DNA of 37,337 nt from a virus. A program made the position numbers and the translations under genes. Shown one piece after another: positions 1,537-32,941 of the stretch (its first letter is position 1; every line of letters begins with the position of its first letter). Location of the stretch: positions 1 to 37,337 of IMG/VR virus record IMGVR_UViG_3300033979_000098. One strand, 5' to 3'. Below the pieces are notes generated by a model. That model was not told the origin of the DNA. It did not search any database and was given only the letters and a program-made list of their open reading frames with translations.

Positions 1537-3105
1537 ATGGGACTGAGGACTCGACTGTTTCGGGCGATGGGTTTTGAGCCGGTTCGGCCGCGGGCACGGG
1601 CGTATCAGGGCGCGCGGGTTAGCCGGCTGACAGCGGACTGGGTGACAAGTGGCACCAGCGCTGACGCCGAGATCAAGTCGAGCTTCAAGGCACTGCGCAA
1701 CCGTGCGCGGCAGTTGTGCCGTGACAACGACTATGCGAAGCAGGCGCTGCGCGCGATCCAGAACAACGTGATCGGGCACGGCATCCGCCACCAAGGGCAG
1801 GTGCGGATGCTGCGCGGCGGCAAGCTTGATGAGGCGATCAACGGCCGCATCCACGAGCAGTGGGAGAAGTGGATGCATAAGACCCGTTGTGATGTGAGCG
1901 GGATCCTTGGCTTCCACGACATTGAGCGCCTGCTGGTGCGCAGCATGGCCGAGTCGGGCGAGGTGTTCGTGCGGATGATCAAGCGGCCGTTTGGTGACAG
2001 CCGTGTGCCGTTTGCGCTGCAGGTGCTCGAGGCTGACTACCTGATCGACGATGACGTGCCGCAGGCGGCCGAGGGCAACACGGTGCGGATGGGCATCGAG
2101 GTGGATCAGTACCTGCGGCCGCAGGCGTACCACTTCTACGCGAATCATCCTGGCGACACTTACGCGGGCAACGCGCGCACCAACGGCCGCCGCATCCGTG
2201 TGCCGGCCAATGAGGTGGTTCATTTGTTTCTGCCTGAGCGGCCAGGGCAGACGCGGGGCGTGACGTGGTTCGCGTCGGCGCTGATGCGGCTCCACATGCT
2301 GCAGGGTTATGAGGAGGCCGAGGTGGTGCGTGCGCGGGCGAGCAGCGCGCTGATGGGATTCATCACCAGCCCCGAGGGCGAGCTGGTGGGTGATGAAGTC
2401 TACGAGGGCGAGCGGGTCAGTGAGTTCCAACCGGGTGTGTTCAAGTATCTGCAACCGGGCGAGAGCGTCACGGTGCCAGACCTGAACAGTCCTGACGGGC
2501 AGCTTGAGCCGTTCACGCGGTCGATGCTTCGGGCCGTGGCTGCTGGCGTGGGTGTTTCGTTCGAGAGCATCAGCAAGAACTTCTCAGAGAGCAACTACAG
2601 CAGCAGCCGTCTGAGCCTGCTTGAGGAGCGTGACACCTACCGTGTGCTGCAGCGGTACATGGTGGAGAACTTTCACCAGCAGGTGTTCGAGCAGTGGCTT
2701 GAGATGGCGGTGCTGAGCGGCGCGCTAAGCCTGCCTGGCTATGAGACCAACCCAGACCGCTATCGCGCCAGCCGGTGGGTGCCGCGCAGCTGGGAGTGGG
2801 TTGACCCACAACGCGAGGTGAACGCTTATAAGGCGGCGGTCCGGTGTGGGTTCAAGACGCTGGGCCAGGTGATCGCTGAGCAGGGCGGCGATCTTGAGGA
2901 TGTGCTTGTAGCACGTCAGGCTGAGCTGGCGATGCTCGATGAGATGGACATCATCACCGACACCGATCCGAGTGAGGTGAGCGATAGCGGCGCGGTGCAG
3001 GCCCCGCTCGGCATGGGCGCGATGCCGGCATTCGATGAGACTGAGCCGCCGGCGATGGATGACGAGGAAGAAGATGATGATTTGACCGAGGCGCCTGAGG
3101 ATTGA
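1537..3105 (+). CDS. Portal protein (lambda gpB family)
   Basis: This is a 522-residue portal of the lambda gpB type (Phage_portal_2 family), the dodecameric ring through which DNA enters and leaves the capsid. Length is typical. The N-terminal region has the family's arginine-rich start and the stretch RARQLCRDNDYAKQAL. The central region contains DVSGILGFHDIERLLVR and a motif around GVSFESISKNFSESNYSSSR that is strongly conserved in this family. The C-terminus is very acidic (a run of Asp and Glu over the last 25 residues). The ATG lies one base after the previous stop, with GAGG upstream. The stop overlaps the next start as TGATG, suggesting translational coupling with the capsid polyprotein. 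Confidence 0.93.
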   Translation: MGLRTRLFRAMGFEPVRPRARAYQGARVSRLTADWVTSGTSADAEIKSSFKALRNRARQLCRDNDYAKQALRAIQNNVIGHGIRHQGQVRMLRGGKLDEAINGRIHEQWEKWMHKTRCDVSGILGFHDIERLLVRSMAESGEVFVRMIKRPFGDSRVPFALQVLEADYLIDDDVPQAAEGNTVRMGIEVDQYLRPQAYHFYANHPGDTYAGNARTNGRRIRVPANEVVHLFLPERPGQTRGVTWFASALMRLHMLQGYEEAEVVRARASSALMGFITSPEGELVGDEVYEGERVSEFQPGVFKYLQPGESVTVPDLNSPDGQLEPFTRSMLRAVAAGVGVSFESISKNFSESNYSSSRLSLLEERDTYRVLQRYMVENFHQQVFEQWLEMAVLSGALSLPGYETNPDRYRASRWVPRSWEWVDPQREVNAYKAAVRCGFKTLGQVIAEQGGDLEDVLVARQAELAMLDEMDIITDTDPSEVSDSGAVQAPLGMGAMPAFDETEPPAMDDEEEDDDLTEAPED

Positions 3106-5729
3106 TGGCAACCGTCAACGGCCAGGACATCGATCTGATGCCAACCGATGGCATGAAGACCGAGGCGCAGCGGTATCGCGACTGGAAAGACGAGGGCCGG
3201 GCAGGCGGCACTGAGGTGGCCGCGACCAGGGCGCGGCAGATCCTGAGCGGTGATGAGCTGAGCCCCGACACTGTGATCACCATGGCGGCGTGGTTTGCGC
3301 GGCATGAGGTGGACAAGCAAGGCGAAGGATTCAGCCCTGATGAAGATGGCTACCCATCGCCGGGACGTGTTGCGTGGGCCGCATGGGGCGGCGATGCGGG
3401 TCAAAGTTGGGCCACGACCAAGGCCGATAGAATCAAAGCATTAGAAGATCGAAGCGCCGTGATTCTTGCGCGTCCCTATCCCAACGAACACGCCGCCAGA
3501 CTGACCGATCCTGATCAGTACGATTCGCTGCGCCGCGAGAACGGCGCTGGTGGTGCTGGCATTGATTTCATCTATGGGATCAAGGAAGGCGTGAGCGAGG
3601 TCCAGGCGATCCGGTTCAGCAGTTCGCAATACAGCCCAGCCGAGGCGCGCGCTTGGCTGGCTGAGCATGACTTCACGCCGATCGAGTTTGAGGAGGCCAC
3701 CGGCGATGGTGAACGCGCCGAGCCTGGCGATCTATCCGAGGGCGACTTCGTGCGGTGGAACAGCAGCGGCGGCACTGCTCAGGGCCGGATCGAGCACATC
3801 ATGCGCGAGGGCACCCTGGGCGTGCCCGACACTGAGTTCAGCATCGAGGCCACACCTGAAGACCCGGCCGCGCTGATCCGCATCTATCGCGAAGGCGATG
3901 ACGGATGGGAGGCAACTGAGACGATGGTGGGCCACAAGTTCTCAACCCTGACCAAGATCTCGGCGCTGCGCAGCCTCACCGGCAAGTATCAGCGCGCTGA
4001 GGTGACCACCTTCGATGAGGTGCAGGACCGCACCTATGAGTTTCCGTTCAGCTCTGAGTTCCCGGTTGCGCGCTACTTCGGCAACGAGATCCTGAGCCAC
4101 GATGAAGAAGCAGCCAACCTGAGCCGCCTGAACGATGGCGCGCCGCTGCTGTTCAATCACAACCCTGACAAGGTGATCGGCGTGGTTGAGCGGGCATACA
4201 TCGACGGCAAACGCCGCCGCGGCTATGCACGCGTGCGGTTCAGCCGCAACGCCTTTGCTCAGGAGATCCTGAGTGATGTGAAGGATGGCGTTCTACGGAA
4301 TGTTTCCTTCGGCTACTCCATTGACAAAATGGAGGAGCGTGGCAGTGGCGACTATGTTGCAACTGTCTGGTCTCCTTATGAGATCAGCGTTGTCTCGGTG
4401 CCGGCTGACCCCGGCGTCGGGATCGGCCGATCTTTTGAGGCTGACACCCCTGCTGCTTCGGCAGCACCATCCCCTGATCCCATTCCTTCAATGGAAAACG
4501 CCACCCCCGATCTGGCCGTGGTGCAGGCCGAGGCCGCTCAGGCCGAACGGTCCCGCATCTCGGACATCACTGCCCTGTGCGACAAGCACGGCATGGCAGA
4601 CCTTGGCCGGCAGATGGTTGAGTCTGGTCGTTCAATCGACGAGGCTCGCGCTGCTGTGCTCGACAAGCTCAACATTCACCAGGAGACCGTGACCATGCAG
4701 GCCGCCGACCTTGGCCTTAGCGATAAGGAGAGCCGCAGCTTCTCTTTCCTTCGCGCCATCAACTATCTGTCCAACCCGACCGACCGCTCTGCCCGTGAGG
4801 CTGCTGCGTTCGAGATCGAAGCCTCTGAAGCTGCTGCTGCCAAGCTCGGCCGTCAGTCCCGTGGCATCACCATCCCTCAGGATGTGCTGCGTCGTGACCT
4901 GAACGTCGGCACTGCTACTGCCGGTGGCAACCTGGTCGCCACTGACCTGGATGCCGGCAGCTTCATCGACCTGCTGCGCAACGCTTCCGCTCTGGATCAA
5001 GCTGGCGCCACTGTGCTGACCGGCCTGACCGGCAACGTTGCTATCCCCCGCCAGTCCGGCGCTGCTACCGCCTACTGGGTGGCTGAGAGCGGCTCGCCCA
5101 CCGAGAGCCAGCAGACCGTTGATCAGGTCAGCCTGACTCCCAAGACTGTTGCAGCCTTCACTGACTACAGCCGTCGCCTGATGCTGCAGTCCAGCATCGA
5201 CGTTGAGAACATGGTCCGCAACGACCTGGCTCGCGTTCTTGCCCTGAAGATCGACCTGGCTGGTCTGTACGGCACCGGCAGCAACAGTGAGCCCCTCGGC
5301 CTGAAGCTGACCACCGGCATCGGTACCGAGAACTTCGCCGCTGCTGCCCCCACCTTCGAGGAAGTGGTGGCACTCGAGAGCGACGTGGCAACCGCTAACG
5401 CACTACTCGGCAGCCCGGTCTATCTGATGAACGCTGCGATGCGCGGCGGCCTCAAGACCACCAAGAAAGATGCCGGCTCCGGCATGTTCATCATGGAGGG
5501 CAACGAGGTCAACGGCTACCGCGGCGTGCTGTCCAATCAAGTGGCAGCTGGCGATCTGTGGTTCGGCAACTTTGCCGACCTGATCATCGGTTACTTCAGC
5601 GGTCTCGACATCATGGTCGATCCCTACAGCAACAGCACCAGCGGCACCGTCCGCGTGGTCGCAATGCAGGACGTGGACATCGCGGTACGTCACGCCGAGT
5701 CCTTCAGCCGCGGCGCTGATACCCTCTGA
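3105..5729 (+). CDS. Prohead protease, scaffold and HK97-fold major capsid protein in one polyprotein
   Basis: This is an 874-residue fusion from the ATG that overlaps the portal stop (a TTG one codon upstream is less likely). Modules in order: residues 1-118, an accessory domain with DGYPSPGRVAWAAWGGDAG; 120-200, a second small domain (YPNEHAARL to LAEHDFTPIEFE); 205-285, a third (GDFVRWNSSGG to GHKFSTLTKI); 298-445, an S78-type prohead protease with candidate catalytic His352 (LFNHNPDKVIG) and Ser401 (RNVSFGYSI), spaced much as in HK97; about 446-530, an Ala/Glu/Arg-rich scaffold-like linker; 531-874, an HK97-fold capsid protein (TATAGGNLVATDL, AVLTGLTGN-like and YGTGSN segments). The protease should cut within the polyprotein after assembly. 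An internal Shine-Dalgarno and ATG precede the capsid module (see 4681-4697). The capsid half uses codons typical of highly expressed genes. Confidence 0.92.
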   Translation: MATVNGQDIDLMPTDGMKTEAQRYRDWKDEGRAGGTEVAATRARQILSGDELSPDTVITMAAWFARHEVDKQGEGFSPDEDGYPSPGRVAWAAWGGDAGQSWATTKADRIKALEDRSAVILARPYPNEHAARLTDPDQYDSLRRENGAGGAGIDFIYGIKEGVSEVQAIRFSSSQYSPAEARAWLAEHDFTPIEFEEATGDGERAEPGDLSEGDFVRWNSSGGTAQGRIEHIMREGTLGVPDTEFSIEATPEDPAALIRIYREGDDGWEATETMVGHKFSTLTKISALRSLTGKYQRAEVTTFDEVQDRTYEFPFSSEFPVARYFGNEILSHDEEAANLSRLNDGAPLLFNHNPDKVIGVVERAYIDGKRRRGYARVRFSRNAFAQEILSDVKDGVLRNVSFGYSIDKMEERGSGDYVATVWSPYEISVVSVPADPGVGIGRSFEADTPAASAAPSPDPIPSMENATPDLAVVQAEAAQAERSRISDITALCDKHGMADLGRQMVESGRSIDEARAAVLDKLNIHQETVTMQAADLGLSDKESRSFSFLRAINYLSNPTDRSAREAAAFEIEASEAAAAKLGRQSRGITIPQDVLRRDLNVGTATAGGNLVATDLDAGSFIDLLRNASALDQAGATVLTGLTGNVAIPRQSGAATAYWVAESGSPTESQQTVDQVSLTPKTVAAFTDYSRRLMLQSSIDVENMVRNDLARVLALKIDLAGLYGTGSNSEPLGLKLTTGIGTENFAAAAPTFEEVVALESDVATANALLGSPVYLMNAAMRGGLKTTKKDAGSGMFIMEGNEVNGYRGVLSNQVAAGDLWFGNFADLIIGYFSGLDIMVDPYSNSTSGTVRVVAMQDVDIAVRHAESFSRGADTL
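4681..4697 (+). promoter_or_regulatory. Internal ribosome binding site and start for a stand-alone capsid protein
   Basis: AGGAG at 4681-4685 is followed, nine bases later, by an in-frame ATG at 4695 (residue 531 of the polyprotein). Initiation here would give a 344-residue protein covering exactly the HK97-fold capsid module. Lambda uses the same device for Nu3 inside C. The site is seen directly. Its use is inference. Confidence 0.5.
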
Positions 5730-6318: not shown

Positions 6319-6596
6319 TGGCCTTTACGGAGGATCTCGGAATCTTCCTTGCAGATTTCGGCGTCAGCTGCACTGCTGGCGCCGTCACTGCTTTGGGCAT
6401 CTTGGACATGCCGAGCCAAGTGCTAGCCAATGGCATGGTGCTCAGCACCGACTACACACTGACTGCCAAGGCTTCTGACTTTGGCACACTGACCCGCGGC
6501 AGCTCGATCACGGTCGATGCTGTGGCCTATACGGTGCGGGAGGTGATGCTGATGGATGACGGGAAGATTGTTCAACTCGGACTTCAAAAGACATGA
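6318..6596 (+). CDS. Head-tail connector, lambda gpFII-like
   Basis: This is a 92-residue protein. The C-terminal segment, SITVDAVAYTVREVMLMDDG followed by KIVQLGLQ, is the recognisable pattern of small head-tail attachment proteins related to lambda gpFII, which sit under the portal and gpW and form the tail docking surface. Length is a little under lambda gpFII (117 residues). It overlaps both neighbours by a few bases, consistent with one translational unit for the neck genes. The fold assignment is by motif memory, not by search. Confidence 0.65.
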   Translation: MAFTEDLGIFLADFGVSCTAGAVTALGILDMPSQVLANGMVLSTDYTLTAKASDFGTLTRGSSITVDAVAYTVREVMLMDDGKIVQLGLQKT

Positions 6597-7231
6597 GCGG
6601 CCCCTTCAAAGTCAACACGCGCAGCGCATGGGCATCGCAGAATCCGGTGCTGCTGGCCGGCGAGCCTGGCGTTGAAAGCGAGACCGAGAATCTGAAGATC
6701 GGAGATGGTCGGACGGCATGGTCTGGCTTGCCTTACTTCGGCAATCCTGGCTATTGGGGATCTTTCTGGGATACAACTTCGCAGACGGCGACAGCGAACA
6801 CGCCAACACCGATCCTGCTGCGCAAGAACGACCTAGACAACCGCGGCATCAAGGTCATCTCAAATAGCCGCATCACGGTTGACCACCCTGGCATCTACAG
6901 CTTCACATTCTCGATCCAGTTCAGCAATACCGATTCGAGCATCCACGACATCAACGTTTGGCTGCGCAAGAACGGCACCGGCGCCAGCGGTGACGTGGCC
7001 GACAGCGACAGCAGGTTTAGCGTCATCGCCCGCCATGGCGGCATCGACGGCAATGTGATCGGAACGGTCAACTTCGTGCTCAAGCTGGCAACAGCGGATT
7101 ACATCGAACTGATCTGGGCAACCGCCAACGTTGCCGCATACATCCACGCCGAAGCCGCCCAAACCAGTCCGTTCGCGCATCCGGGCATCCCTGGCATCAT
7201 CTGCACCGTGATTCAGGTGGCATCAGCATGA
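6593..7231 (+). CDS. Fibre-like virion protein in the neck region: Mtd-type N-terminus plus TNF/C1q-like domain
   Basis: This is a 212-residue protein. Residues 1-50 contain the WASQNPVLLAGEPGVESET and LKIGDGRTAWSGLPY pattern of the N-terminal attachment module of phage fibres (as in the Bordetella phage tropism determinant). Residues about 60-212 look like a TNF/C1q-type jelly roll, with DHPGIYSFTFSIQFSNT, DINVWLRKNGTG and a late YIELIWAT strand. Such jelly rolls trimerise and bind ligands. The gene sits between the connector and tail terminator rather than with the tail fibres, so a head or neck fibre is likely. The same N-terminal module recurs at 15117. Which structure it attaches to is inference. 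Confidence 0.75.
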   Translation: MSGPFKVNTRSAWASQNPVLLAGEPGVESETENLKIGDGRTAWSGLPYFGNPGYWGSFWDTTSQTATANTPTPILLRKNDLDNRGIKVISNSRITVDHPGIYSFTFSIQFSNTDSSIHDINVWLRKNGTGASGDVADSDSRFSVIARHGGIDGNVIGTVNFVLKLATADYIELIWATANVAAYIHAEAAQTSPFAHPGIPGIICTVIQVASA

Positions 7232-7665: not shown

Positions 7666-7866
7666 ATGGTCAATGAATACCACGGCCAAGGCGGCTCCTA
7701 CGTCTTGGATCCACACACCGGCGAACTCAAGCTCATCGAGCGAACAGAGCCGGCACAACCCTCCAGCCTTGAGGAATTGACCGATGCCGCTCCTGAGCCG
7801 CAAACGCCTGATCCTGGCAAAAACCGAAAGCCCTTACGGAACCGACAGCAGCCCAGACGGCACTGA
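7666..7866 (+). CDS. Small protein between tail terminator and tail tube, unknown function
   Basis: This is a 66-residue protein from ATG at 7666, with GGTAG just upstream. The N-terminus reads VNEYHGQGGSYVLDPHTGEL, and the rest is rich in Pro, Glu, Lys and Arg and probably disordered. Its last 83 bases overlap the tail tube gene in another frame, so its C-terminus is constrained by two reading frames. I recall similar short proteins before tube genes in related siphoviruses. No function is known to me. Confidence 0.6.
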   Translation: MVNEYHGQGGSYVLDPHTGELKLIERTEPAQPSSLEELTDAAPEPQTPDPGKNRKPLRNRQQPRRH

Positions 7867-8947
7867 TGCGATTCTGGTGCGTGAGCTTGAGATCACGCCC
7901 CTTCAGAGCGACACCGTTGATCGTGAACTGATCCGCCCATACCTTGGCGCATCACAACAGCTGCTGGCCAATACTCGCGTTGAGGTGACCTTTCAGGTTG
8001 AGATGGCAGGCAGCGGTACGGCCGGTACGGCGCCCGCATTCGGACGGGTGATCCAGGCCTGCGGATTCAGCGCGACGACCACCGGCTCGGCCGTCACCGG
8101 CACTGCGCAGACCGGCTCGGCTGGCAGCATCACGCTCGCTGCTGGCGCAAGCAGCACGAACGACATCTACAACGGCATGGTGATCTCGATCACCAGCGGC
8201 ACCGGCAGCGGCTCGAGCGGCATCATCACTGATTATGTCGGCAGCACCAAGGTTGCAACCGTTCAAAAGACCACCGCTGCATTCACGCCTGATAACACCA
8301 GCGTCTACAGCATCGCCGCGAACGTGGCTTACAAGCCGGTGAGCGACACGTTCAGCAGCGTGAGCATCTACTACAACATCGACGGTGTGCTGCACAAGAT
8401 CACCGGTTGCCGCGGCACCTTCACGGTTAACGGCACCGTTGGCGAGATTCCGACGCTGGCCTTCACGATGACGGGCATCTACAACGCCCCCACCGATACG
8501 GCCGCCCCTGCCGCTACCTACAGCAACCAAGCGGTGCCGGTCATCTTCAAGAACGGCAACACGACCAACTTCCAGCTGCTGAGCTACGCCGGTTGCCTGC
8601 AGTCGGTCGAGCTTGACATGGGCAACGAGGTTGTCTATCGCGAGTTGGTGGGTTGCTCCAAGGAGGTGCTGATTACGAACCGCGCCGTTACCGGTACCGT
8701 CGTGCTCGAAGCGCCGACCATCGCGAGCAAGGATTATTTCACGGCTGCCCTGTCTGATTCAACGCTTGGCAACCTGACGCTCAAGCATGGTCAGACCGCC
8801 GGTAACATCGTCACCCTGACCAGTTCGACCATCGACATCGGTGATGTGAGCTACGAAGACCAGGACGGCATCCACATGTTGTCGATCCCTGTGGTTGCAG
8901 TTCCGGGCAGCACCGGCAATGATGAGATGATTCTGGTCTTCACCTGA
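7784..8947 (+). CDS. Major tail (tube) protein
   Basis: This is a 387-residue tube protein, the hexamer-forming unit of the siphovirus tail (lambda gpV type). GAGGA lies eight bases before the ATG. The N-terminal segment has SRKRLILAKTESPYGTD and ELEITPLQSDTVDRE, and there is a long beta-rich core with YKPVSDTFSSVSIYYNIDG and CRGTFTVNGTVGEIPTL. Residues about 105-180 look like an inserted Gly/Ser/Thr-rich beta domain (ITLAAGASSTNDIYNGMVIS onward), probably surface exposed. This makes the protein longer than gpV (246 residues). The tape measure is four reading frames downstream. Confidence 0.85.
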   Translation: MPLLSRKRLILAKTESPYGTDSSPDGTDAILVRELEITPLQSDTVDRELIRPYLGASQQLLANTRVEVTFQVEMAGSGTAGTAPAFGRVIQACGFSATTTGSAVTGTAQTGSAGSITLAAGASSTNDIYNGMVISITSGTGSGSSGIITDYVGSTKVATVQKTTAAFTPDNTSVYSIAANVAYKPVSDTFSSVSIYYNIDGVLHKITGCRGTFTVNGTVGEIPTLAFTMTGIYNAPTDTAAPAATYSNQAVPVIFKNGNTTNFQLLSYAGCLQSVELDMGNEVVYRELVGCSKEVLITNRAVTGTVVLEAPTIASKDYFTAALSDSTLGNLTLKHGQTAGNIVTLTSSTIDIGDVSYEDQDGIHMLSIPVVAVPGSTGNDEMILVFT

Positions 8948-8954
8948 TCCCTGC

Positions 8955-9335
8955 ATGGCATTCGTTCTCAAGCAATCTGCCACCTACTCATGGCCGGTGC
9001 CGTTCAAGGTGCCGACCGATGGCGGCAAATACGAGAAGCAGACCTTTGATGCGGAGTTCAAGCGGCTGCCGCAGTCCAGGATCAATGAGATCCAGACTGA
9101 GGTGCAAGCTCGCATAAGGTCAGCAGAGAAGGGCGAAGCATTTGAGAGCGACATTTCAGACATCTCGATTGCTGATGAGGTGCTGGCCGGCTGGGCCGGG
9201 GTCGTTGACGACGAAGGCGAGGAGGTGCCATTCAGCGCCACCAGCAAAGCCCAGCTGCTCAACATCCCCGGCCTGGCCGGTTCGATCATTGAAGCGTACT
9301 TCGAGAGCGTCGCCGGCAAGAAACTAAAAAACTGA
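8955..9335 (+). CDS. Tail assembly chaperone, short form (lambda gpG-like)
   Basis: This is a 126-residue protein between the tail tube and tape measure genes, the standard position of the tail assembly chaperone that wraps the tape measure while the tube forms. It is Glu- and Lys-rich with EKQTFDAEFKRLPQSRINEI and a C-terminal GLAGSIIEAYFESVAGKK. The reading frame ends ...CTA AAA AAC TGA, so a -1 slippery heptamer directly abuts the stop. Part of the product should therefore be extended into the T-like frame (see 9332-9655), as in lambda G and G-T. Confidence 0.85.
   Translation: MAFVLKQSATYSWPVPFKVPTDGGKYEKQTFDAEFKRLPQSRINEIQTEVQARIRSAEKGEAFESDISDISIADEVLAGWAGVVDDEGEEVPFSATSKAQLLNIPGLAGSIIEAYFESVAGKKLKN
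9326..9332 (+). other. Programmed -1 ribosomal frameshift site A AAA AAC
   Basis: The heptamer A AAA AAC fits the X XXY YYZ rule in the frame of the upstream gene and is followed at once by TGA. Slipping back one base after AAC reads CTG ACC GAG and enters the open frame that ends at 9655. Simultaneous slippage of tRNA-Lys and tRNA-Asn would give AAA AAA pairing. Confidence 0.85.
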
Positions 9336-9655
9336 CCGAGGCTGCGCGGTACTGGATCAAAGGTGGCGTCATTGACAACACCGCTGACGACGCTGCAGCC
9401 TTCGGCATTGATCTCAACCTGCCGCCAGAACCGGAGCACTTTGAGGTTGAACCGGAGGCATGGCCTGCTGTGCAGATGTTCCTGAGGTGCCAGACGCAGT
9501 GGCGCAGCGGACCGACCGGCGTGATCGGCCTTGATTACCTTGCGCTGGATCTAGCATTTAGACTGTATGGAGCAGAGGACCCCGCCGCCATGCTGGAGGA
9601 CATCCAGGTGATTGAGGGCGAGGTGCTGATGGCTGCGCAAAAGGGGGCCAAGTAA
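9332..9655 (+). CDS. T-like extension of the tail chaperone, made by -1 frameshift (DUF1799-like)
   Basis: This 107-residue extension is read only after the -1 shift at 9326-9332. The fusion (8955-9332 joined to 9332-9655) is 233 residues, with no gap and no loss of homology: LTEAARYWIKGGVIDNT follows directly after GKKLKN. The last half carries the pattern of DUF1799, a family found in this tail position: FLRCQTQWRSGPTGVIGLDY, then LDLAFRLYG. The only ATG in this frame (9470) would remove the first 45 residues and has no good ribosome site, so independent initiation is unlikely. The stop is immediately followed by the tape measure ATG. Confidence 0.82.
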   Translation: MTEAARYWIKGGVIDNTADDAAAFGIDLNLPPEPEHFEVEPEAWPAVQMFLRCQTQWRSGPTGVIGLDYLALDLAFRLYGAEDPAAMLEDIQVIEGEVLMAAQKGAK

Positions 9656-11404
9656 ATGGCGCTGAACATGGATGCGGCCGTTCGGGTCAAAGCCAGCGTT
9701 GACGGACTGGGCGAGATCAACAGCCTGAACAAAGCGCTGGGCAACACCGAACGACAAGCCAATGAAACAGGCGGCGCGCTAGGGCGGATCAAAGGCGTGG
9801 CCGGTGGCCTGACCAACGCGTTAGGTGCGCTGGTGCCTGCAGCAGGCATTGCAGGCATTGCGGCGCTAGGCAAGCGCGCGATTGATGCGGCCGACAACCT
9901 GAACGATCTCAGTCAACGCACAGGCGTCGCGGTGCCGATTCTGAGCAAGTTTGGCGCAGCTGCTCAGGACAGCGGCAGCAGCATCGACGAAGTGGCCAAG
10001 GCAATGGGCAAGCTGGCTAAGGGCATCGTTGACCCAGCGTCGAAGGCGAACGAGGCACTGCGTTCGATTGGCATTAGCTCAACCGACTCAGCAGGCAAAG
10101 TGCGGAGCATGGACGCGATCATGCTCGACGTTGCAGACAAGTTCTCGAAGATGCCCGATGGCGCGCAGAAGACAGCGCTGGCCATGGAACTATTCGGCAG
10201 GTCTGGCGCCAACCTGATCCCCATGCTCAACCAGGGCCGCGGCGCGCTCGGGGAATACGCCGCAACGATCGACACCGAGATGGCGCAGGCGGCTGACAAG
10301 TTCAACGATGCGCTTAACGGCATCGCTCGATCAGTCGCCGGCCCCTTCAATCAAGCGATCACCGCTCTGCTGCCATTCATCACACAACTGGCTCAAGGTA
10401 TCGCGGGTCTTGCGCAATGGTTCAGCGGACTGCCGGCTCCGCTTCAAGGGATCATCTTGGCGGTTGGCGCGCTGACTGCAGCGTTCGTGTTGTTGGCACC
10501 CGCCATCAGCGCGATCATCTCGATTGGTGGTGCCCTGGCCGGTGTGTTTGCAGGTGGAACAATTTTCGCCACGATTGCGGGCTACCTTGGCGCGGTCATT
10601 CCCACAATCACCGCCATCGGCGGCGCGCTCAGCGGCCTGCTGCCAATCCTTGCGGCTGTGTTCACCGGCCCGGTTGGGTGGGTTGCGCTACTGGTAGCTG
10701 CAGGCGTGGCGATCTATGCCTTCCGCGATCAGATCGGTGCTGTGTTCCAAGGCATCGGCTACGTGCTGCAGGCTGCGGCGCAGGGCTTTAAGTCGGTCTT
10801 CATTGACCCAATCACCCGCAACCTAAGCGCTATGGCCCAGGGAATCGGTCAACTGTTCCAAACGCTTGGCGGCATATTGTCCCGACCATTCGAGGCAGCT
10901 GCTGGCGCCATTCGCGGCATCGTCAACGGCATCATCGGCGGCGTTCAGAACGCGATCAACGGCGCCATCGGCGGCATCAACCAGCTGATCGCTGCAGCCA
11001 ATCGCGCGCTGGCCGTGCTGCAGCTGCCACAGATCCCATTCTTCCCCGGCGTAAGCCTGCCGCGATTCGCTGATGGTGGCGTGGTGAACGGCCCGACGAT
11101 GGCGCTCGTGGGCGAGGGCGGAGAGCCTGAGTACATCGTGCCGCAGTCCAAAGCAGCAGGCTTTGCCGCCAACTGGATGGCTGGTCGCCGTGGCGCTTCT
11201 GCCATCCCGCGGTTTGCAGAGGGCGGCGTGGTGATGCCTACCAGCGCGAATGTCAGCATCCAGACTGGCCCGGTCACACAGATGAATGGCACGAACTACG
11301 TCACCACGCAGGACATGAGCCGCGCCGTGCAGGCCGGTGTGAATCAGACGCTTGCCATGCTGCGCAATGACATGGGCACACGTCGAGCGGTGGGGCTGGC
11401 CTGA
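9656..11404 (+). CDS. Tail tape measure protein
   Basis: This is a 582-residue tape measure that sets tail length and is ejected with the DNA. The N-terminal 220 residues are helical (lambda-type start: MDAAVRVKASVDGLGEINSL, then LNDLSQRTGVAVPILSKFG). Residues about 240-370 hold several long hydrophobic stretches (ILAVGALTAAFVLLAPAIS, VGWVALLVAAGVAIYAF) expected for the membrane-active part. The C-terminus has the family's duplicated signature, RFADGGVVNGPTMALVGEGG with EYIVPQSKA, then RFAEGGVV. At about 1.5 Å per helical residue the tail would be roughly 85-90 nm, short for a siphovirus. It starts immediately after the preceding stop. Confidence 0.95.
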   Translation: MALNMDAAVRVKASVDGLGEINSLNKALGNTERQANETGGALGRIKGVAGGLTNALGALVPAAGIAGIAALGKRAIDAADNLNDLSQRTGVAVPILSKFGAAAQDSGSSIDEVAKAMGKLAKGIVDPASKANEALRSIGISSTDSAGKVRSMDAIMLDVADKFSKMPDGAQKTALAMELFGRSGANLIPMLNQGRGALGEYAATIDTEMAQAADKFNDALNGIARSVAGPFNQAITALLPFITQLAQGIAGLAQWFSGLPAPLQGIILAVGALTAAFVLLAPAISAIISIGGALAGVFAGGTIFATIAGYLGAVIPTITAIGGALSGLLPILAAVFTGPVGWVALLVAAGVAIYAFRDQIGAVFQGIGYVLQAAAQGFKSVFIDPITRNLSAMAQGIGQLFQTLGGILSRPFEAAAGAIRGIVNGIIGGVQNAINGAIGGINQLIAAANRALAVLQLPQIPFFPGVSLPRFADGGVVNGPTMALVGEGGEPEYIVPQSKAAGFAANWMAGRRGASAIPRFAEGGVVMPTSANVSIQTGPVTQMNGTNYVTTQDMSRAVQAGVNQTLAMLRNDMGTRRAVGLA

Positions 11405-14617: not shown

Positions 14618-15120
14618 ATCTGTTCCCGTCGCTGGTGCCATCGACTCGCCTTTATGTGCCGGGTGATTTGCCGCAGTCGCGGATGCAGTCACTTAGCGGC
14701 GTTGATGCCAGCTTCAGACGCGGCAACCGGCGCATCGGCCAAGCGCTCAACCTGACATTCACCAACCTGCAGGAGGCGGACCTGACTTTGCTGACGCAGC
14801 ACTACATCACCGTGCAGGGCAGCTTTGATCGGTTCTTTCTATCGGGCGAGGTGTGGTCTGGGCTGGCCACGCCGCCGGTGCCATTGGTCAGTGATTACAC
14901 CTGGCGCTATGCATCACCGATGCTGGTCAGTCATGCATCGTGTGGCCGATACAACGTCGAGGTTGAGCTGATCACCGAGCCGGTCGACCTTGGCGATCTT
15001 GTGTTCGACGGCAGCGTCGCTGATCCGGTTACCCCGTCGCGGCTTTACATCGTCGACGCATTGACGGCTGCGGCCGCCCCGGCCAGGTCGCTTATCATCG
15101 AGGCAGGAGGTGCCGCATGA
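14614..15120 (+). CDS. Minor tail protein, paralogue 2 of 2
   Basis: This is a 168-residue protein overlapping paralogue 1 by ATGA. The aligned features are FPSLVPSTRLYVPGDLPQS, LSGVDASFRRGNRRIGQAL, LQEADLTLLTQHYITVQGS and WSGLATPPVPLVSDYTWRYA. The extra C-terminal part ends in an Ala-rich segment (about residues 125-168). The next gene, the main tail fibre, has its ribosome site inside the end of this gene. A fibre-adaptor role is inferred from position only. Confidence 0.7.
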   Translation: MNLFPSLVPSTRLYVPGDLPQSRMQSLSGVDASFRRGNRRIGQALNLTFTNLQEADLTLLTQHYITVQGSFDRFFLSGEVWSGLATPPVPLVSDYTWRYASPMLVSHASCGRYNVEVELITEPVDLGDLVFDGSVADPVTPSRLYIVDALTAAAAPARSLIIEAGGAA

Positions 15121-16499
15121 CTACAACGCTGCTGGCGTTTCAAAAGCAACGCCGCGACACCGCCGCCAACTGGACATCGGTCAATCCGACGCTGCTGGCT
15201 GGCGAGATTGGCATTGAGTCGAACACCAACAAGTGGAAGGTTGGCGACGGCACAACGGCATGGGCCAGCCTTGGGTACATCCCCGGACTGTCGATCAGCG
15301 CGTATCCACTGGTTAATGCTGACATCGCCAGCAACGCCGAGATCGCCGTCAGCAAGCTGGCTGATGGCACACCGCGGCAGCTGCTGCAGACCGATGCAGC
15401 CGGCACCGGCGTTGAGTGGGCCAGCAACATTGATGTCCCCGGCACGCTTGACGTAACCGGCGCGGCGACATTCGACGGCAGCGTCACGGTTCAGGGTGAT
15501 CTAACGGTCAACGGCACAACGACCACGATCGACACCACCAACCTGGCGATCGAAGACAAGAACATCGAGATCGGCAAGGTCGCCACACCGACAGACGTGA
15601 CCGCTGATGGTGGCGGCATCACACTCAAGGGCAGCACCGACAAGACGATCAACTGGATCGACGCCACTGATGCGTGGACATTCAGCGAGCACGTCAACAT
15701 CGCCAGCGCTAAGGAATACCGCATCGCTGGCACCAAGGTGCTGGATGCCACCAGCCTTGGCAGTGCTGTCGTTAGCAGCAGCCTGACCAGCGTCGGCACG
15801 ATCGGCACCGGCACATGGAACGCGACCACAATCGCGGTTAACAGGGGCGGCACCGGTCAGACCACCTACACCGACGGCCAACTGCTGATCGGCAACAGCA
15901 CCGGCAACACGCTGACAAAGGCCACACTGACAGCCGGCTCCGGCATCACGATCACAAACGGCAACGGCAGCATCTCGATCGCCGGCACCGGCGGCACGGT
16001 CACCAGCGTCACTGCCAGCAGCCCGCTAGCCAGCAGCGGTGGCACAACGCCGAACATCAGCATTCAGGACGGCACCACCAGTCAGAAGGGCGCCGTTCAG
16101 CTTGAGGACTCAACCAGCAGTACAAGCACCACCAAGGCAGCCACGCCCAACGCGGTCAAGAGCGCCTACGACCTAGCTAATGCTGCGCTGCCCAAGGCTG
16201 GCGGCACCATCACTGGTGATGTGCTGCTCGACAATCAGTCTGATCTGCGGTTCGGTGAGGCGACAGGCCACGGCGGCAACTGGGTCGCATTTCAAGGGGC
16301 GGCCACGATCGCGGCAAATGTCACGTGGACACTGCCTGCTGCTGATGGCACAAGTGGCCAGCTGCTCAGCACCAACGGCAGCGGCACATTGAGCTGGGCT
16401 TCGGACACTGGCGCGATTATCGTAGATGGTGGAAACTTCGCCAATGGATCGTCAACAGTATCCACGGCGGCGACCTTTGACGGTGGGAACTTCAACTAA
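15117..16499 (+). CDS. Tail fibre protein with Mtd-type N-terminus
   Basis: This is a 460-residue fibre with a textbook ribosome site, AGGAGGT at 15105-15111, five bases before ATG. Residues 1-60 hold the attachment module (NWTSVNPTLLAGEIGIESNT, KWKVGDGTTAWASLGYI), also present at 6593. Residues about 90-330 are low-complexity Thr/Gly/Asn/Ser beta-repeats (GSVTVQGDLTVNGTTTTIDT, NRGGTGQTTYTDGQLLIGN), typical of trimeric beta-helical shafts. GAVQLEDSTSSTSTTKAATP followed by NAVKSAYDLANAALPKAGG is the known collar-type fibre repeat. The C-terminus ends GGNFANGSSTVSTAATFDGG. It probably connects the tail tip to the receptor-binding proteins encoded next. Confidence 0.85.
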   Translation: MTTTLLAFQKQRRDTAANWTSVNPTLLAGEIGIESNTNKWKVGDGTTAWASLGYIPGLSISAYPLVNADIASNAEIAVSKLADGTPRQLLQTDAAGTGVEWASNIDVPGTLDVTGAATFDGSVTVQGDLTVNGTTTTIDTTNLAIEDKNIEIGKVATPTDVTADGGGITLKGSTDKTINWIDATDAWTFSEHVNIASAKEYRIAGTKVLDATSLGSAVVSSSLTSVGTIGTGTWNATTIAVNRGGTGQTTYTDGQLLIGNSTGNTLTKATLTAGSGITITNGNGSISIAGTGGTVTSVTASSPLASSGGTTPNISIQDGTTSQKGAVQLEDSTSSTSTTKAATPNAVKSAYDLANAALPKAGGTITGDVLLDNQSDLRFGEATGHGGNWVAFQGAATIAANVTWTLPAADGTSGQLLSTNGSGTLSWASDTGAIIVDGGNFANGSSTVSTAATFDGGNFN

Positions 16500-17074: not shown

Positions 17075-19453
17075 ATGACAGTTCCCGGTTCAGCCAACCC
17101 GCTGTTGACGTACAAAGCCGCCGCAGGGGGTATCTCACGCTCGCTGCGTTTCAACTCAGCCGACTCGGCGTATCTCAGCCGCACCCCCGCATCTGCTGGC
17201 AACCGCAAGACCTGGACCTGGGCGGGGTGGGTGAAAAAGTGCAGCAATGATACGGCAAGTCAATATTTGTTCGCAACAACTAACAACGGACTATCAGCAG
17301 GAGCCTACATCTATTTCAACAATAATAATTTGCTTTATTGGGACAGAAGATCTGGCGCTGATGGCTTGGTGCTTACAACAAATGCTGTCTTCAGAGACAA
17401 TTCAGCTTGGCTTCATATTGCTTTATCGGTTGACTACGGAAACTCCACTAGCTCTAATAGGGCTAGGTTCTTTGTCAATGGTGTTGAGCAGACGTACTCA
17501 GCTTCATCATATCCAAGCACAACAGACGACAGTTACGTCAACGCGACAACAGCTCATTACATTGCCGGCCCTCCGCAGTATTTCAACGGCTACCTAGCCG
17601 ACATCTACTTCATCGACGGCCAAGCGCTGACCCCCAGCAGCTTCACCGAAACCGACGCCACCACCGGCCAGCTTATCCCGAAGGCATACACCGGCAGCTA
17701 CGGCACCAACGGTTTCCACCTGGAGTTCGCGGACAACAGCAGCAACACCGCGACCACATTAGGGAAGGACACTAGTGGCAACGGGAATAACTTCACCCCG
17801 TCGAATTTGTCCGTCACCGCTGGTGCAGGCAACGATTCGCTGGTGGATGTGCCGACCAACGGCGCGCAGACGGATACGGGCGTGGGGGGTGAGGTGAGGG
17901 GGAATTACTGCACGTTGAATCCGCTGTTTAAAGCAGACACTGGCACACCAGCATACTCAAATGGAAATCTAGATTTAAGCGCTGGTGGATCAGGAGACAG
18001 CTACTTTGCGGGAACTTTTCTTTTCTCAACAGGAAAGTATTATTACGAGACAACAATTAATGCAGTTGGCAATGGGGTACTAATTGGGGTCTGCGCAGAG
18101 TTAAACTCTACCAGCCTCACAAACATTGGATCGTACAGAGAAAGTGGCACTATTTACAACTTAAGCTCCGCAACTCAAACCGCTGGGTCTGCTTATACAA
18201 CAGGCGACATCATTGGGGTAGCAATAGACTGCGATAATGCAACAGTAAAGTTTTATAAAAACGGTGTTGGTCAAGGTGCGACTCCATCTTTTACGTTTAC
18301 AGCGGGTACAAATTTGATCGTAAGAGGTCGATCTAATAGCACAGGAGCTTCACTTAGTTTCAACTTCGGCCAACGCGCCTTTGCCTACACGGCCCCCAGC
18401 GGCTTCAAGGCGCTCTGCACGGCAAACCTGCCCGCACCATTAGTCACAAAGCCTTCCACGGTTTTTGATGTGAAGCTGTGGACTGGAAACGGCAGCAGTC
18501 AAACAATTACTGGATTGGGGTTCAGTCCTGACTTCGTATGGATCAAGAGCCGCAGTGCGTCGTATAACCATCGCCTGCTTGACACAATCCGTGGCGCAAC
18601 AAAAGAGCTGTACTCAAGCACTACCGACGCGGAAACAACTCAGTCCCAAAGCTTGACTGCTTTTAATAGCGATGGATTCTCGCTGGGCAGTTTGGCTCAA
18701 GTGAATGAATCCAGCACCACTTTCGCAGGGTGGGCGTGGGACGCAGGAAGCTCCACCGTCACGAACACACAAGGCTCCATCACTTCGAGTGTCAGGGCCA
18801 ACGCGACGGCTGGGTTTAGCGTGGTCACCTACACTGGCAACGGCACAGCAGGCGCCACGGTGGGGCATGGCTTGGGTGCGGCCCCTGCCCTAATCATCAA
18901 CAAACAACGCAGCGGCACAAACAACTGGTGGACGTATCACGTATCACTGGGTGCTACCAAATACGTAGTTCTTGACCTGACAAATGCAGCTGCAACGGCA
19001 AATACAACGTGGAACGACACGGCACCCACTTCGACCGTCTTTAGCATTGGCGTAACAGGAGTTACCAATACAAGTTCGGCAACATATGTGAGCTACTGCT
19101 TCGCCCCAGTAGTCGGGTACTCTAGTTTCGGCAGTTACACCGGCAACGGCAGCACGGATGGGCCGTTTGTGTACACCGGGTTTAGGCCGAGGTGGCTGCT
19201 TATCAAAAATGCCAGCGTTGGCAGCGATTCATGGCAGATCTGGGATGCGGCTCGTAGTGACTACAATGCCGCTCAAAAATATCTCCTGCCAAATACTTCT
19301 GGGGCAGAAGGCGACAATTCGGGCTTTGCTATTGATTTTACAGCAAATGGCTTCAAAGTGCGAAATACAAACACTGCATCCAATGGCAGCGGTAACACGC
19401 TTGTCTACGCCGCCTTCGCAGAAGCTCCCTTCAACTACGCCCGCGCCCGCTAG
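17075..19453 (+). CDS. Large lectin-like receptor-binding protein (LamG, SPRY-like and three tandem repeats)
   Basis: This is a 792-residue protein, the best candidate for host recognition. Residues about 15-200 form a LamG/concanavalin-like jelly roll (SLRFNSADSAYLSRTPAS, TWTWAGWVKK, RARFFVNGVEQ, FNGYLADIYFIDGQALTPSS). Residues about 275-450 look like a second, SPRY-like sandwich (GKYYYETTIN, GDIIGVAIDCDNATVKFYKN). From about 465 to the end there are three repeats of about 100 residues, each opening with TGNG: KLWTGNGSSQTI, VTYTGNGTAGAT and GSYTGNGSTDGP, followed by a hydrophobic I-K or I-N motif (VWIKS, LIINK, LLIKN). Base composition alternates along the gene, AT-rich in predicted lobes and GC-rich in cores, suggesting repeated exchange of surface loops. 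It was not matched to a named receptor. Confidence 0.85.
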   Translation: MTVPGSANPLLTYKAAAGGISRSLRFNSADSAYLSRTPASAGNRKTWTWAGWVKKCSNDTASQYLFATTNNGLSAGAYIYFNNNNLLYWDRRSGADGLVLTTNAVFRDNSAWLHIALSVDYGNSTSSNRARFFVNGVEQTYSASSYPSTTDDSYVNATTAHYIAGPPQYFNGYLADIYFIDGQALTPSSFTETDATTGQLIPKAYTGSYGTNGFHLEFADNSSNTATTLGKDTSGNGNNFTPSNLSVTAGAGNDSLVDVPTNGAQTDTGVGGEVRGNYCTLNPLFKADTGTPAYSNGNLDLSAGGSGDSYFAGTFLFSTGKYYYETTINAVGNGVLIGVCAELNSTSLTNIGSYRESGTIYNLSSATQTAGSAYTTGDIIGVAIDCDNATVKFYKNGVGQGATPSFTFTAGTNLIVRGRSNSTGASLSFNFGQRAFAYTAPSGFKALCTANLPAPLVTKPSTVFDVKLWTGNGSSQTITGLGFSPDFVWIKSRSASYNHRLLDTIRGATKELYSSTTDAETTQSQSLTAFNSDGFSLGSLAQVNESSTTFAGWAWDAGSSTVTNTQGSITSSVRANATAGFSVVTYTGNGTAGATVGHGLGAAPALIINKQRSGTNNWWTYHVSLGATKYVVLDLTNAAATANTTWNDTAPTSTVFSIGVTGVTNTSSATYVSYCFAPVVGYSSFGSYTGNGSTDGPFVYTGFRPRWLLIKNASVGSDSWQIWDAARSDYNAAQKYLLPNTSGAEGDNSGFAIDFTANGFKVRNTNTASNGSGNTLVYAAFAEAPFNYARAR

Positions 19454-26060: not shown

Positions 26061-26248
26061 GATTCGTCGTGGGTGATGGTGTTGGCCTTCTCGTATTGCT
26101 CAACCTCGGCCAATGGGTAGAGCACGAAACCGGGCGTCCTGAAATAGGCGGGGCCCTTGCCTGCCTTGCGCCAGCGCATCAACGTGTCAGGGTGCAACCC
26201 CCACCGCTGCGCCAACTGCGGCGCGGTCAGATAATCAGAAGAGGTCAT
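26057..26248 (-). CDS. Excisionase-type helix-turn-helix protein (AlpA/MerR-like)
   Basis: This is a 63-residue winged-HTH protein: YLTAPQLAQRWGLHPDTLMR followed by WRKAGKGPAYFRTPGFVLYP, the pattern of HTH_17 excisionase/AlpA-like proteins. Despite the family name there is no integrase in the genome, so it more likely regulates transcription of the recombination operon. It overlaps the RecT-like gene by 14 bases. Confidence 0.85.
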   Translation of the reverse strand: MTSSDYLTAPQLAQRWGLHPDTLMRWRKAGKGPAYFRTPGFVLYPLAEVEQYEKANTITHDES

Positions 26249-26894
26249 CAGTCGTAACCTCCACTGGCTCAGGGTCGGCCGCGATCTTGGCGTTCAGGTC
26301 ATCGAGCGTCGTATCGGCCGCTGTGACCTTGACCGGCTCGATGTCCACCACTTCCTCCTGGCTCTGCATCCCGAGCAACATGTCGCTGGCATACAACCTG
26401 CCCCAGAATGCTGCGGCCCGGTAGCGGATCATCAGCTCGGGCATCGTCTGCCATTTGCTGCCCGACTTGGTGGCCCATCCTTCTTTCTTGGCCATGGCCA
26501 TCGTGATGGTTGGCCCCTTCAGCTCCTGCTGGCTGGCCAGATCGGTCGCGACGGCATAGCAGGCCAAGCTGTCGCCTTCGCCGCTGATCTCAAACCGCAA
26601 CGGGCTAAACCGGCCGCAGCCGTTGACCATCGCGATGATGAAGCTGCTGCTCCACGACGGGCGGCCATGGATCACATGCAGGTGTTGCATCGCCAGGAAC
26701 GGGCTGATGCCCATCCGGTTGGCGATCTCAAGCGCAACCAAGCAGTTGGCGAAGCCCTGCTGTCCTTGAAACTGCGGCGGGATCAGCGTGCTGCTGGCAA
26801 GCGCCTTGGCGATCCGCTGGGCGTCCTCGAACGCTTGGATGCCGGAGAACACCGAGCCGGTGCTGGTGGTGGTGAGTGCTGTTGATTGAGTCAT
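26235..26894 (-). CDS. RecT-like single-strand annealing protein
   Basis: This is a 219-residue RecT-family annealase. Family marks: VALEIANRMGISPFLAMQHL, VIHGRPSWSSSFIIAMVN, TKSGSKWQTMPELMIRYRAA and FWGRLYASDMLLGMQSQEE. RecT proteins bind single strands left by a partner exonuclease and anneal them. The partner here is the PD-(D/E)XK nuclease two genes upstream in the operon, with SSB downstream. The ATG overlaps the HNH stop (ATGA), so the inserted HNH gene preserved translational coupling. The C-terminal tail is acidic. Confidence 0.85.
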   Translation of the reverse strand: MTQSTALTTTSTGSVFSGIQAFEDAQRIAKALASSTLIPPQFQGQQGFANCLVALEIANRMGISPFLAMQHLHVIHGRPSWSSSFIIAMVNGCGRFSPLRFEISGEGDSLACYAVATDLASQQELKGPTITMAMAKKEGWATKSGSKWQTMPELMIRYRAAAFWGRLYASDMLLGMQSQEEVVDIEPVKVTAADTTLDDLNAKIAADPEPVEVTTDDLF

Positions 26895-30892: not shown

Positions 30893-32941
30893 ATGGACCC
30901 GATCAGCCTCGTCGCTCAGCTTGAGCGGCTTCCTTCCGCGTGGGCGCTTGTAGCAGTCGGCAACGACAAGCGTCCCTATCAACCGGAATGGCAGAAGACC
31001 CCAATCTCGCGCGATCACCTCGCCGCTGAGATCAATGCAGGCCGCGCTGTTGCAATCGGCGTCCTGGCCGGCCCCCAATCTGGTGGCCTGCTGTTCGTCG
31101 ATCACGACGGCCTCGGCGCATCCGAAATTCTCGAGCAGATCGGCGCGCCGCTGCGTGATCTCCCCAAGTCCTGGGCGGTCACCTCAGGCCGTGATGGCCG
31201 GCTACAGATCATCTACCTGGTCCCCGAACCGTTCTGGGCCACCATCAAGACCACCAAGCTGCGCAGCTCTATCAAGGGCGAACAGCTTGAACTGCGCTGG
31301 TCTGGCTGCCAGTCCGTAGTGGCTGGCGCCCACCCCATGACCGGCGCCTATAGATGGCTCAAAGATCGATCACCCGATGATCTGCCCATCGCAGAAGCAC
31401 CATCGATCCTGCTGCAACAAATGCAGCGCAAGCAGCCGGATCCAGCCCCGCTGATCCGAATCCCAGAATCTGACGCTCAACGCGCCCGCGACTTCCTGGA
31501 CCGCATCCCAGCAGCGGATGCCGATGACTATGACACCTGGGTCAAGGTCGGCATGGCGCTCCATAGCGTCGGTGATGACAGCCTCCTGCAGGACTGGATC
31601 AAATGGTCGGCCAGTTCAGGCAAATTCGAGCCCGGCACCTGCGAAGCCAAATGGCGCACGTTCAAGGCCGACACCGGCGGCGTCAGCCTCGGCACCCTTG
31701 CTCACATGGCCGGCCATGAAAAAAGCCGCCCAGTCGCACCGACCAGACGGGTAAAGGCTGCATCCCACCCACAGGAGCATGACGACAACAGGCCTACAGC
31801 GGCAGATGGCAAGCTCCTGAAGCTCGAATCAAATCAACTGCTCGAGCTGCTGCGGCAGCAACTCGGCGCCGCACTTCGCTGGAACCTGTTCACTTCAGCC
31901 ATCGAACTTGATCAGAAGCCGCTCGAACACATCGATCACTTCTATCTGCAGCTCGCACAGCAGGGCGTCAAGGTCTCCAAGGAACTCGCAGCTGACGCGA
32001 TCCATGTGGTTGCGCTTGAGAACCCCTACGACCCCGTTCGCGAATACCTAGAGCACGTTGCCGATCACGTCCCAGCCACATCTATCGAAAACCTCGCAAC
32101 CGCTTACCTGCGCCCCACGGACCAGCCAGGCAGTCTTTACGACGCCATGATCAAGGCCACCCTGATCGCTGCGGTCCGCCGCATCTTTGAGCCCGGTTGC
32201 AAGCATGATTCAGCCTGCGTGCTCATGGGCACACAGGGTTGCGGCAAAAGCACCTTCTGGCGCAACCTCGGCGGCCTTTGGTTCAGCGATGCCCTTCGCG
32301 ACATCGGGTCAAAAGACGACCTAATGGTTCTGCACCGTTCCTGGATCATGGAATGGGCCGAGCTGGATCACATCACCGGTCGCAAGCACGCCGGCCAGAT
32401 CAAGGCCTTCCTGACCCAGCAGACCGATATGTTCCGCGCGCCATACCAGCGCGCCACCGAGTCGTTCCCACGGCGGTCCATCATCGTCGGGTCAACCAAC
32501 CGAGACACCGGCTTCCTGGTCGATGACACCGGCAACCGCCGCTTCTGGGTCATACCCGTGACTGCCACCCCGCACATTTCCGTCGATGGGCTGCTGCTCG
32601 AGCGGGATGCCATCTGGGCGGCAGCTGTCGCCGCCTATCGCAACGGCGAGCCCAACCACCTCAGCCGTGAACACGCCCAGCAGGTGGACGCCGAGAACGA
32701 AACCTACCTCGTCGATAGCCCATGGAAGGCGGCCATCCAGGAGTGGTTGACCAACCGCAGGAGCGTTGAACCGATCACCAGCGAGGCCATTCTGACCCAA
32801 GCGATCAACAAACCGGTCGAGCGCCAAGGGCGGGCCGATCAGATGCAGGTTGCGTCCATTCTGAGAGACCTGGGATACGAAAAGAAGCGGCAATGGTTGG
32901 AAGGTAGGAATAAATGGGTGTTTGTCCAACCTCCAGGATGA
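30893..32941 (+). CDS. Primase-polymerase fused to VapE-type helicase
   Basis: This is a 682-residue replication protein. Residues 1-170 resemble the bifunctional prim-pol fold, with the acidic pair in LLFVDHDGLG (Asp70, Asp72) and SVVAGAHPMTGAYRWL. Residues about 200-280 fit a PriCT-type linker domain (DDYDTWVKVGMALHSVGDDS). Residues about 420-600 are the VapE/superfamily 3-like ATPase: Walker A MGTQGCGKST, Walker B WIMEWAELD, sensor region STNRDTGFLVDDTGNRRFW. The C-terminal 80 residues look like a winged-helix tail (ILTQAINKPVERQGRADQMQ). The protein primes and unwinds phage DNA; no phage DNA polymerase is present. Its stop codon lies within a perfect hairpin. Confidence 0.9.
   Translation: MDPISLVAQLERLPSAWALVAVGNDKRPYQPEWQKTPISRDHLAAEINAGRAVAIGVLAGPQSGGLLFVDHDGLGASEILEQIGAPLRDLPKSWAVTSGRDGRLQIIYLVPEPFWATIKTTKLRSSIKGEQLELRWSGCQSVVAGAHPMTGAYRWLKDRSPDDLPIAEAPSILLQQMQRKQPDPAPLIRIPESDAQRARDFLDRIPAADADDYDTWVKVGMALHSVGDDSLLQDWIKWSASSGKFEPGTCEAKWRTFKADTGGVSLGTLAHMAGHEKSRPVAPTRRVKAASHPQEHDDNRPTAADGKLLKLESNQLLELLRQQLGAALRWNLFTSAIELDQKPLEHIDHFYLQLAQQGVKVSKELAADAIHVVALENPYDPVREYLEHVADHVPATSIENLATAYLRPTDQPGSLYDAMIKATLIAAVRRIFEPGCKHDSACVLMGTQGCGKSTFWRNLGGLWFSDALRDIGSKDDLMVLHRSWIMEWAELDHITGRKHAGQIKAFLTQQTDMFRAPYQRATESFPRRSIIVGSTNRDTGFLVDDTGNRRFWVIPVTATPHISVDGLLLERDAIWAAAVAAYRNGEPNHLSREHAQQVDAENETYLVDSPWKAAIQEWLTNRRSVEPITSEAILTQAINKPVERQGRADQMQVASILRDLGYEKKRQWLEGRNKWVFVQPPG

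Follow-up and report, generated by a model that had tools for sequence, protein, structure and literature searches.

A conserved slippery heptamer abutting a stop codon as the probable −1 frameshift site of a G/G-T tail chaperone pair in a siphophage

Comparison of a virus genome with its relatives indicates that −1 frameshifting on the heptamer A_AAA_AAC, which lies directly before the stop codon of a G-like gene, very probably yields a G/G-T pair of tail chaperones. The sequence analyzed, referred to here as the window, comprises positions 1 to 37,337 of the IMG/VR virus record IMGVR_UViG_3300033979_000098. It contains a siphophage late region with genes for terminase, portal, protease-capsid, head-tail connectors, tail tube, tape measure, and tail proteins. 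The two-frame gene sits between the tail tube gene, assigned by PF18906, and the tape measure gene, assigned with PHROGs, and the features of this region are as follows.

7784-8947, plus strand: tail tube protein gene (PF18906 Phage_tube_2, E 2.3e-17), directly upstream of the G-like frame
8955-9335, plus strand: G-like frame, a putative tail assembly chaperone (PF08748 Phage_TAC_4) whose translation has 126 aa and ends in GKKLKN
9326-9332, plus strand: slippery heptamer A_AAA_AAC, the sole copy in the window, with its position kept in 246 of 247 relatives
9333-9335, plus strand: 0-frame stop TGA, directly 3' of the heptamer; the stop adjoins the heptamer in 211 of 240 classified relatives
9336-9348, plus strand: 5' arm of a predicted stimulatory stem (core 9339-9348), from folding and from invariant core third bases in 21 relatives
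9391-9405, plus strand: 3' arm of the predicted stem, from folding, with 9391-9393 and 9395-9401 pairing with the core
9332-9655, plus strand: T-like frame reached via a −1 shift, a DUF1799 domain of 107 aa beginning LTEAARYW (PF08809, E 9e-16), with coding-type substitutions
9656-11404, plus strand: tape measure protein gene (phrog_3981, tail length tape measure protein, E 4e-69), directly downstream

The end of the G frame reads GGC AAG AAA CTA AAA AAC TGA, confirming the initial annotation in its placement of A AAA AAC directly before TGA. Scanning both strands, we found AAAAAAC only this once in the window. Among the 145 open frames that span 90 codons or more, the G frame was the only one in which a heptamer of the form X_XXY_YYZ directly preceded the frame's own stop. 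The −1 frame is open from 9293 to 9655, and its first ATG, GTG, or TTG is a GTG at 9470, leaving 137 nt without any such codon; the earlier description of this frame as a DUF1799-like continuation with no usable start thus agrees with both the PF08809 match, which extends to 9655, and the start codon survey. The G frame matched PF08748 across residues 1-126 (E 1.5e-5; 25.6 bits, above the curated cut-off of 21.1) and also matched phrog_313 (E 2.9e-5). AlphaFold models of the two domains were fairly confident, with a mean pLDDT of 84.5 for G and 87.0 for T, and sequence and fold searches of the PDB with both domains found no relative and no solved structure resembling either one.

Because the closest named relatives at the G/T locus are the Synechococcus phages S-CBS1, S-LBS1, and S-CBS3, a picocyanobacterial host, among pond or lake cyanobacteria, is likely for this virus. 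Elsewhere in the window, a single 875-aa ORF (3102-5729) joins an S78 prohead protease to an HK97-type major capsid protein, and its N-terminal part includes a TUDOR-like domain (PF11160). An N-terminal module of about 50 residues, of the tail-fibre type (phrog_31660 and others), is common to two separate genes (6593-7231 and 15117-16499), and one of the two is placed among the head-tail connector genes. A SPRY domain and, at the C terminus, a DUF7483 domain are present in a large tail-fibre-like protein (17075-19453). A replication protein of the primase-polymerase/VapE type (30893-32941) lies near a RecT-like gene (26235-26894, minus strand), an SSB gene, and a PD-(D/E)XK gene of the DUF3799 family.

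To compare junctions, we fetched relatives with search peptides lying outside the heptamer and obtained 247 distinct junctions, 246 of which have a slippery heptamer in frame. In the 240 junctions that were classified by script, AAAAAAC directly precedes the stop in 165 and GGGAAAC does so in 45; GGGAAAC lies one codon before the stop in 19 and AAAAAAC in 9, and single junctions have AAAAAAT directly before the stop or GGGAAAC nine nucleotides (three codons) before it. The script called a −1 phase in 241 of the 247, and the remaining 6 likewise have a heptamer at the start of T. These six loci had appeared odd, four as in-frame fused or otherwise unusual G-T genes and two as having the wrong phase, and proved to be mis-picks by the script, the T frame of each starting at AAAAAAC or GGGAAAC. 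The sole true exception was the Klebsiella webervirus FairDinkum, whose junction (locus L168, about 1849-1869) reads GCA AAA GTC TAA with no heptamer and is perhaps a single-tRNA A_AAA slip site. Named phages with the heptamer layout include S-CBS1, S-CBS3, S-LBS1, RcapMu, phiES15, RC1, and phiAH14a. The same layout was seen in at least six of nine loci from prophages or metagenome bins in assemblies of bacteria and archaea. In one metagenomic record (IMGVR_UViG_3300049043_000351, loci L036 and L123), the G and T match lengths are not multiples of three, which points to small indels or to errors in sequencing.

Asking, as the initial annotation had proposed, whether the heptamer is conserved where codons are free to vary, we found that the codon preceding AAA in A-type heptamers ends in A in 175 of 175 cases across nine amino acids, against a background of 13.7% A at fourfold third positions in the same genes. 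The Lys codon of the heptamer is always AAA (31% AAA elsewhere in these genes), and in G-type heptamers the preceding codon always ends in G. A tree of the T domains from 117 relatives implies at least 25 changes of the preceding amino acid and 7 of its third base, the latter equaling the number of changes of heptamer type. In 31 representatives of the window's clade, the synonymous difference per seven-codon stretch was lowest at the heptamer, at 0.10, against a mean of 0.44 (sd 0.09). These substitution patterns demonstrate that the heptamer is under selection independent of the protein. From the codon after the heptamer on, differences in the T frame at codon positions 1, 2, and 3 were 0.15, 0.10, and 0.48. 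Since the T frame is coding from the heptamer on and is open for just three to four codons upstream of it in several relatives, the change of frame must occur there.

We also detected a candidate stimulator that the initial annotation had overlooked. The 80 nt 3' of the heptamer in the window fold at −32.9 kcal/mol, with a z score of −3.2 against dinucleotide shuffles, into a stem of about 13 bulged pairs between 9336-9348 and 9391-9405 that starts 3 to 6 nt after the heptamer; U9394 is predicted to be bulged, and 9403-9405 pair with 9336-9338. Against synonymous shuffles, the window's own stem is marginal (z −1.8; 4.6% of shuffles as stable). In 21 relatives with this form of the stem, the first 30 T codons include exactly five that lack synonymous variation, and these are the five in the stem core (GAG, GCT, and GCG in the 5' arm and GCA and GCC in the 3' arm); variation does occur at third bases that the fold places in bulges or loops. 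With so little variation in the arms, covariation is weak, and the exact pairing is backed mainly by invariance. A sister group in the same cluster retains the start of the stem and uses another partner, GACGCCGCCC with GGGCGGCGU, 30 nt apart (synonymous-shuffle z −1.9). The stretch 3' of the heptamer had a mean synonymous-shuffle z of −1.07 to −1.19 across 30 protein clusters, compared with −0.07 to −0.33 for controls. Together, folding and codon invariance show selection on a stem, which is a likely stimulator of frameshifting. A reading with no stimulator, taken from 60-nt folds after the heptamer (z near 0), was wrong, as about 70 nt are needed for the stem in the window to close. A 5' stimulator of the Shine-Dalgarno type about 10 nt upstream was not found, with anti-SD pairing averaging −3.0 kcal/mol there and −3.4 kcal/mol in control stretches.

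These findings support a model in which most ribosomes would read 8955-9335 and terminate at TGA to produce G (126 aa), and a minority would slip back one base with tRNA-Lys and tRNA-Asn on AAA AAC, read CTG ACC GAG and onward, and produce G-T (126+107 residues) with the junction KKLKN-LTEAARYW. The mRNA stem would slow the ribosome and favor the slip. We infer the slip itself, its rate, and its tandem timing in the P and A (or E and P) sites. A chaperone function for the products is suggested by the Pfam family, the gene order, and the lambda model, by analogy with which G would coat the tape measure protein and the T domain of the rarer G-T would recruit the tail tube protein. The lambda product ratio of 30:1 serves as the model for an excess of G (PMC5009743). 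In E. coli, A_AAA_AAC is reported to be much less slippery than A_AAA_AAG (PMC5009743), and IS1, which uses AAAAAAC, is reported to frameshift at about 2% (PMC12428005). With the HIV heptamer, a stop as the next codon is reported to lower frameshifting in bacteria, an effect that becomes complete with excess RF2, and to reduce it by about 70% in human cells (PMC4373837). Considering the weak shiftiness of A_AAA_AAC in E. coli, the lowering by the stop, and the IS1 value, a modest rate would be expected, which would suit a chaperone pair with G needed in excess.

The adjacent stop codon may itself be an active part of the signal, which would add to the frameshift model instead of competing with it; we regard this as possible but rather doubtful. 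While UGA occupies the A site and the heptamer the E and P sites, the release factor (RF2) would compete with a late −1 slip. Consistent with such a role, adjacency is kept across the two heptamer types and most of the 30 clusters, the heptamer-to-stop distance being 15 nt in lambda and 26 nt on average in the SEA-PHAGES phages as reported in PMC10885494, and the release-factor sensitivity of the stop intercodon with the HIV heptamer in bacterial and human cells (PMC4373837) points in the same direction. However, the stop lies one codon away in three clusters (TTC TAG, TCC TAA), so adjacency is not strictly needed, and it could be merely the shortest way to end G. The preference for UGA is also confounded, as TGA gives CTG in the T frame and TAA or TAG gives CTA. 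The earlier proposal that the stop could increase slippage is unsupported, the HIV-heptamer tests reported in PMC4373837 showing the reverse.

We considered whether the T domain might instead be translated alone from an internal start, with the heptamer incidental. ATG and GTG codons do exist deeper in the T frame, and the GenBank records of S-CBS1, S-CBS3, and RcapMu list separate, shorter T genes with starts at least 62 to 81 nt downstream; in the cyanophage GenBank records that we inspected, the T half is likewise a separate, shorter gene from a later internal start. However, the conserved T protein begins directly at the heptamer, ahead of any start, and the positions of the starts are not conserved, the commonest ATG sites lying 47 to 48 codons into the domain. 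An internal start would also leave the rule of preceding NNA or NNG codons and the swaps of heptamer type unexplained, and we consider it very improbable. For S-LBS1 (locus L162, 2842-3015), GenBank places an antisense gene over the junction, lists T in truncated form, and names the G protein a siderophore-transport ATPase; these entries look like annotation errors.

Slippage of the polymerase, rather than of the ribosome, could also join the two frames. Such slippage is known on long A runs, and the window has a run of six A residues. Against this origin, GGGAAAC, which lacks a long homopolymer, is found at the stop in 45 relatives and slightly further off in another 20. Furthermore, the heptamer has a fixed phase relative to the 0 frame, which is visible to ribosomes and not to the polymerase, and a stem at ribosome-stalling distance is selected. 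We therefore judge transcriptional slippage to be as remote an explanation as an internal start. Homopolymers are also a common site of error, but a false frameshift from misassembly or missequencing of the A run is refuted by the relatives and has a negligible chance of being correct, as some 250 independent contigs share the layout, as do genomes of isolates, and members with GGGAAAC are among them.

Taken together, the comparative evidence strongly supports the lambda-like G/G-T pair proposed in the initial annotation. That G and G-T arise through −1 frameshifting is already known from lambda (Levin 1993; Xu 2004, as cited in PMC5009743), where the gene also lies between the tube and tape measure genes, the −1 shift occurs near the end of the upstream frame, and the T frame has no start of its own at the junction, as in the window. 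In contrast, lambda uses GGGAAAG 15 nt before the stop, and the window has A_AAA_AAC touching the stop with a stem following. Lambda was absent among the 11 tblastn matches of the window's G; the T search matched 1058 records, 40 of which were listed. Genes 49 and 50 of RcapMu (GenBank JN190960) belong to the same two families, TAC and DUF1799, and have G_GGA_AAC directly before TGA; the record lists two genes and mentions a "potential −1 frameshift." The insA/insB' genes of IS1 share A_AAA_AAC and a proposed downstream RNA structure with the window, but their product is a transposase. A_AAA_AAC is also reported in the tail chaperone g-t frameshift of the haloarchaeal virus HCTV-2 (PMC5009743), which differs from the window in having an archaeal host. 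Rous sarcoma and barley yellow dwarf viruses, which are eukaryotic and encode unrelated proteins, are reported to have natural −1 sites with a stop directly after the heptamer (PMC4373837). Our searches of open-access papers found none that link DUF1799 to frameshifting. Nor did we find, in the open-access papers searched, a description of the family-wide cassette, in which a heptamer ending in AAC has the stop next to it and is followed by a stem whose start is fixed and whose partners change.

The locus thus represents a natural, compact, and heavily conserved bacterial −1 cassette in which the stop is locked beside the heptamer, making it useful for timing slippage within the elongation cycle and for analyzing release-factor effects. 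For annotation, G-T pairs in DUF1799 phages can be sought simply by looking for X_XXA_AAC no more than one codon from the stop (three codons in one relative). The RF2 gene carries a shifty stop, and if the stop beside the heptamer is indeed active, this cassette would be its −1 counterpart, with release-factor supply setting the stoichiometry of the G and G-T tail chaperones in a large group of siphophages.
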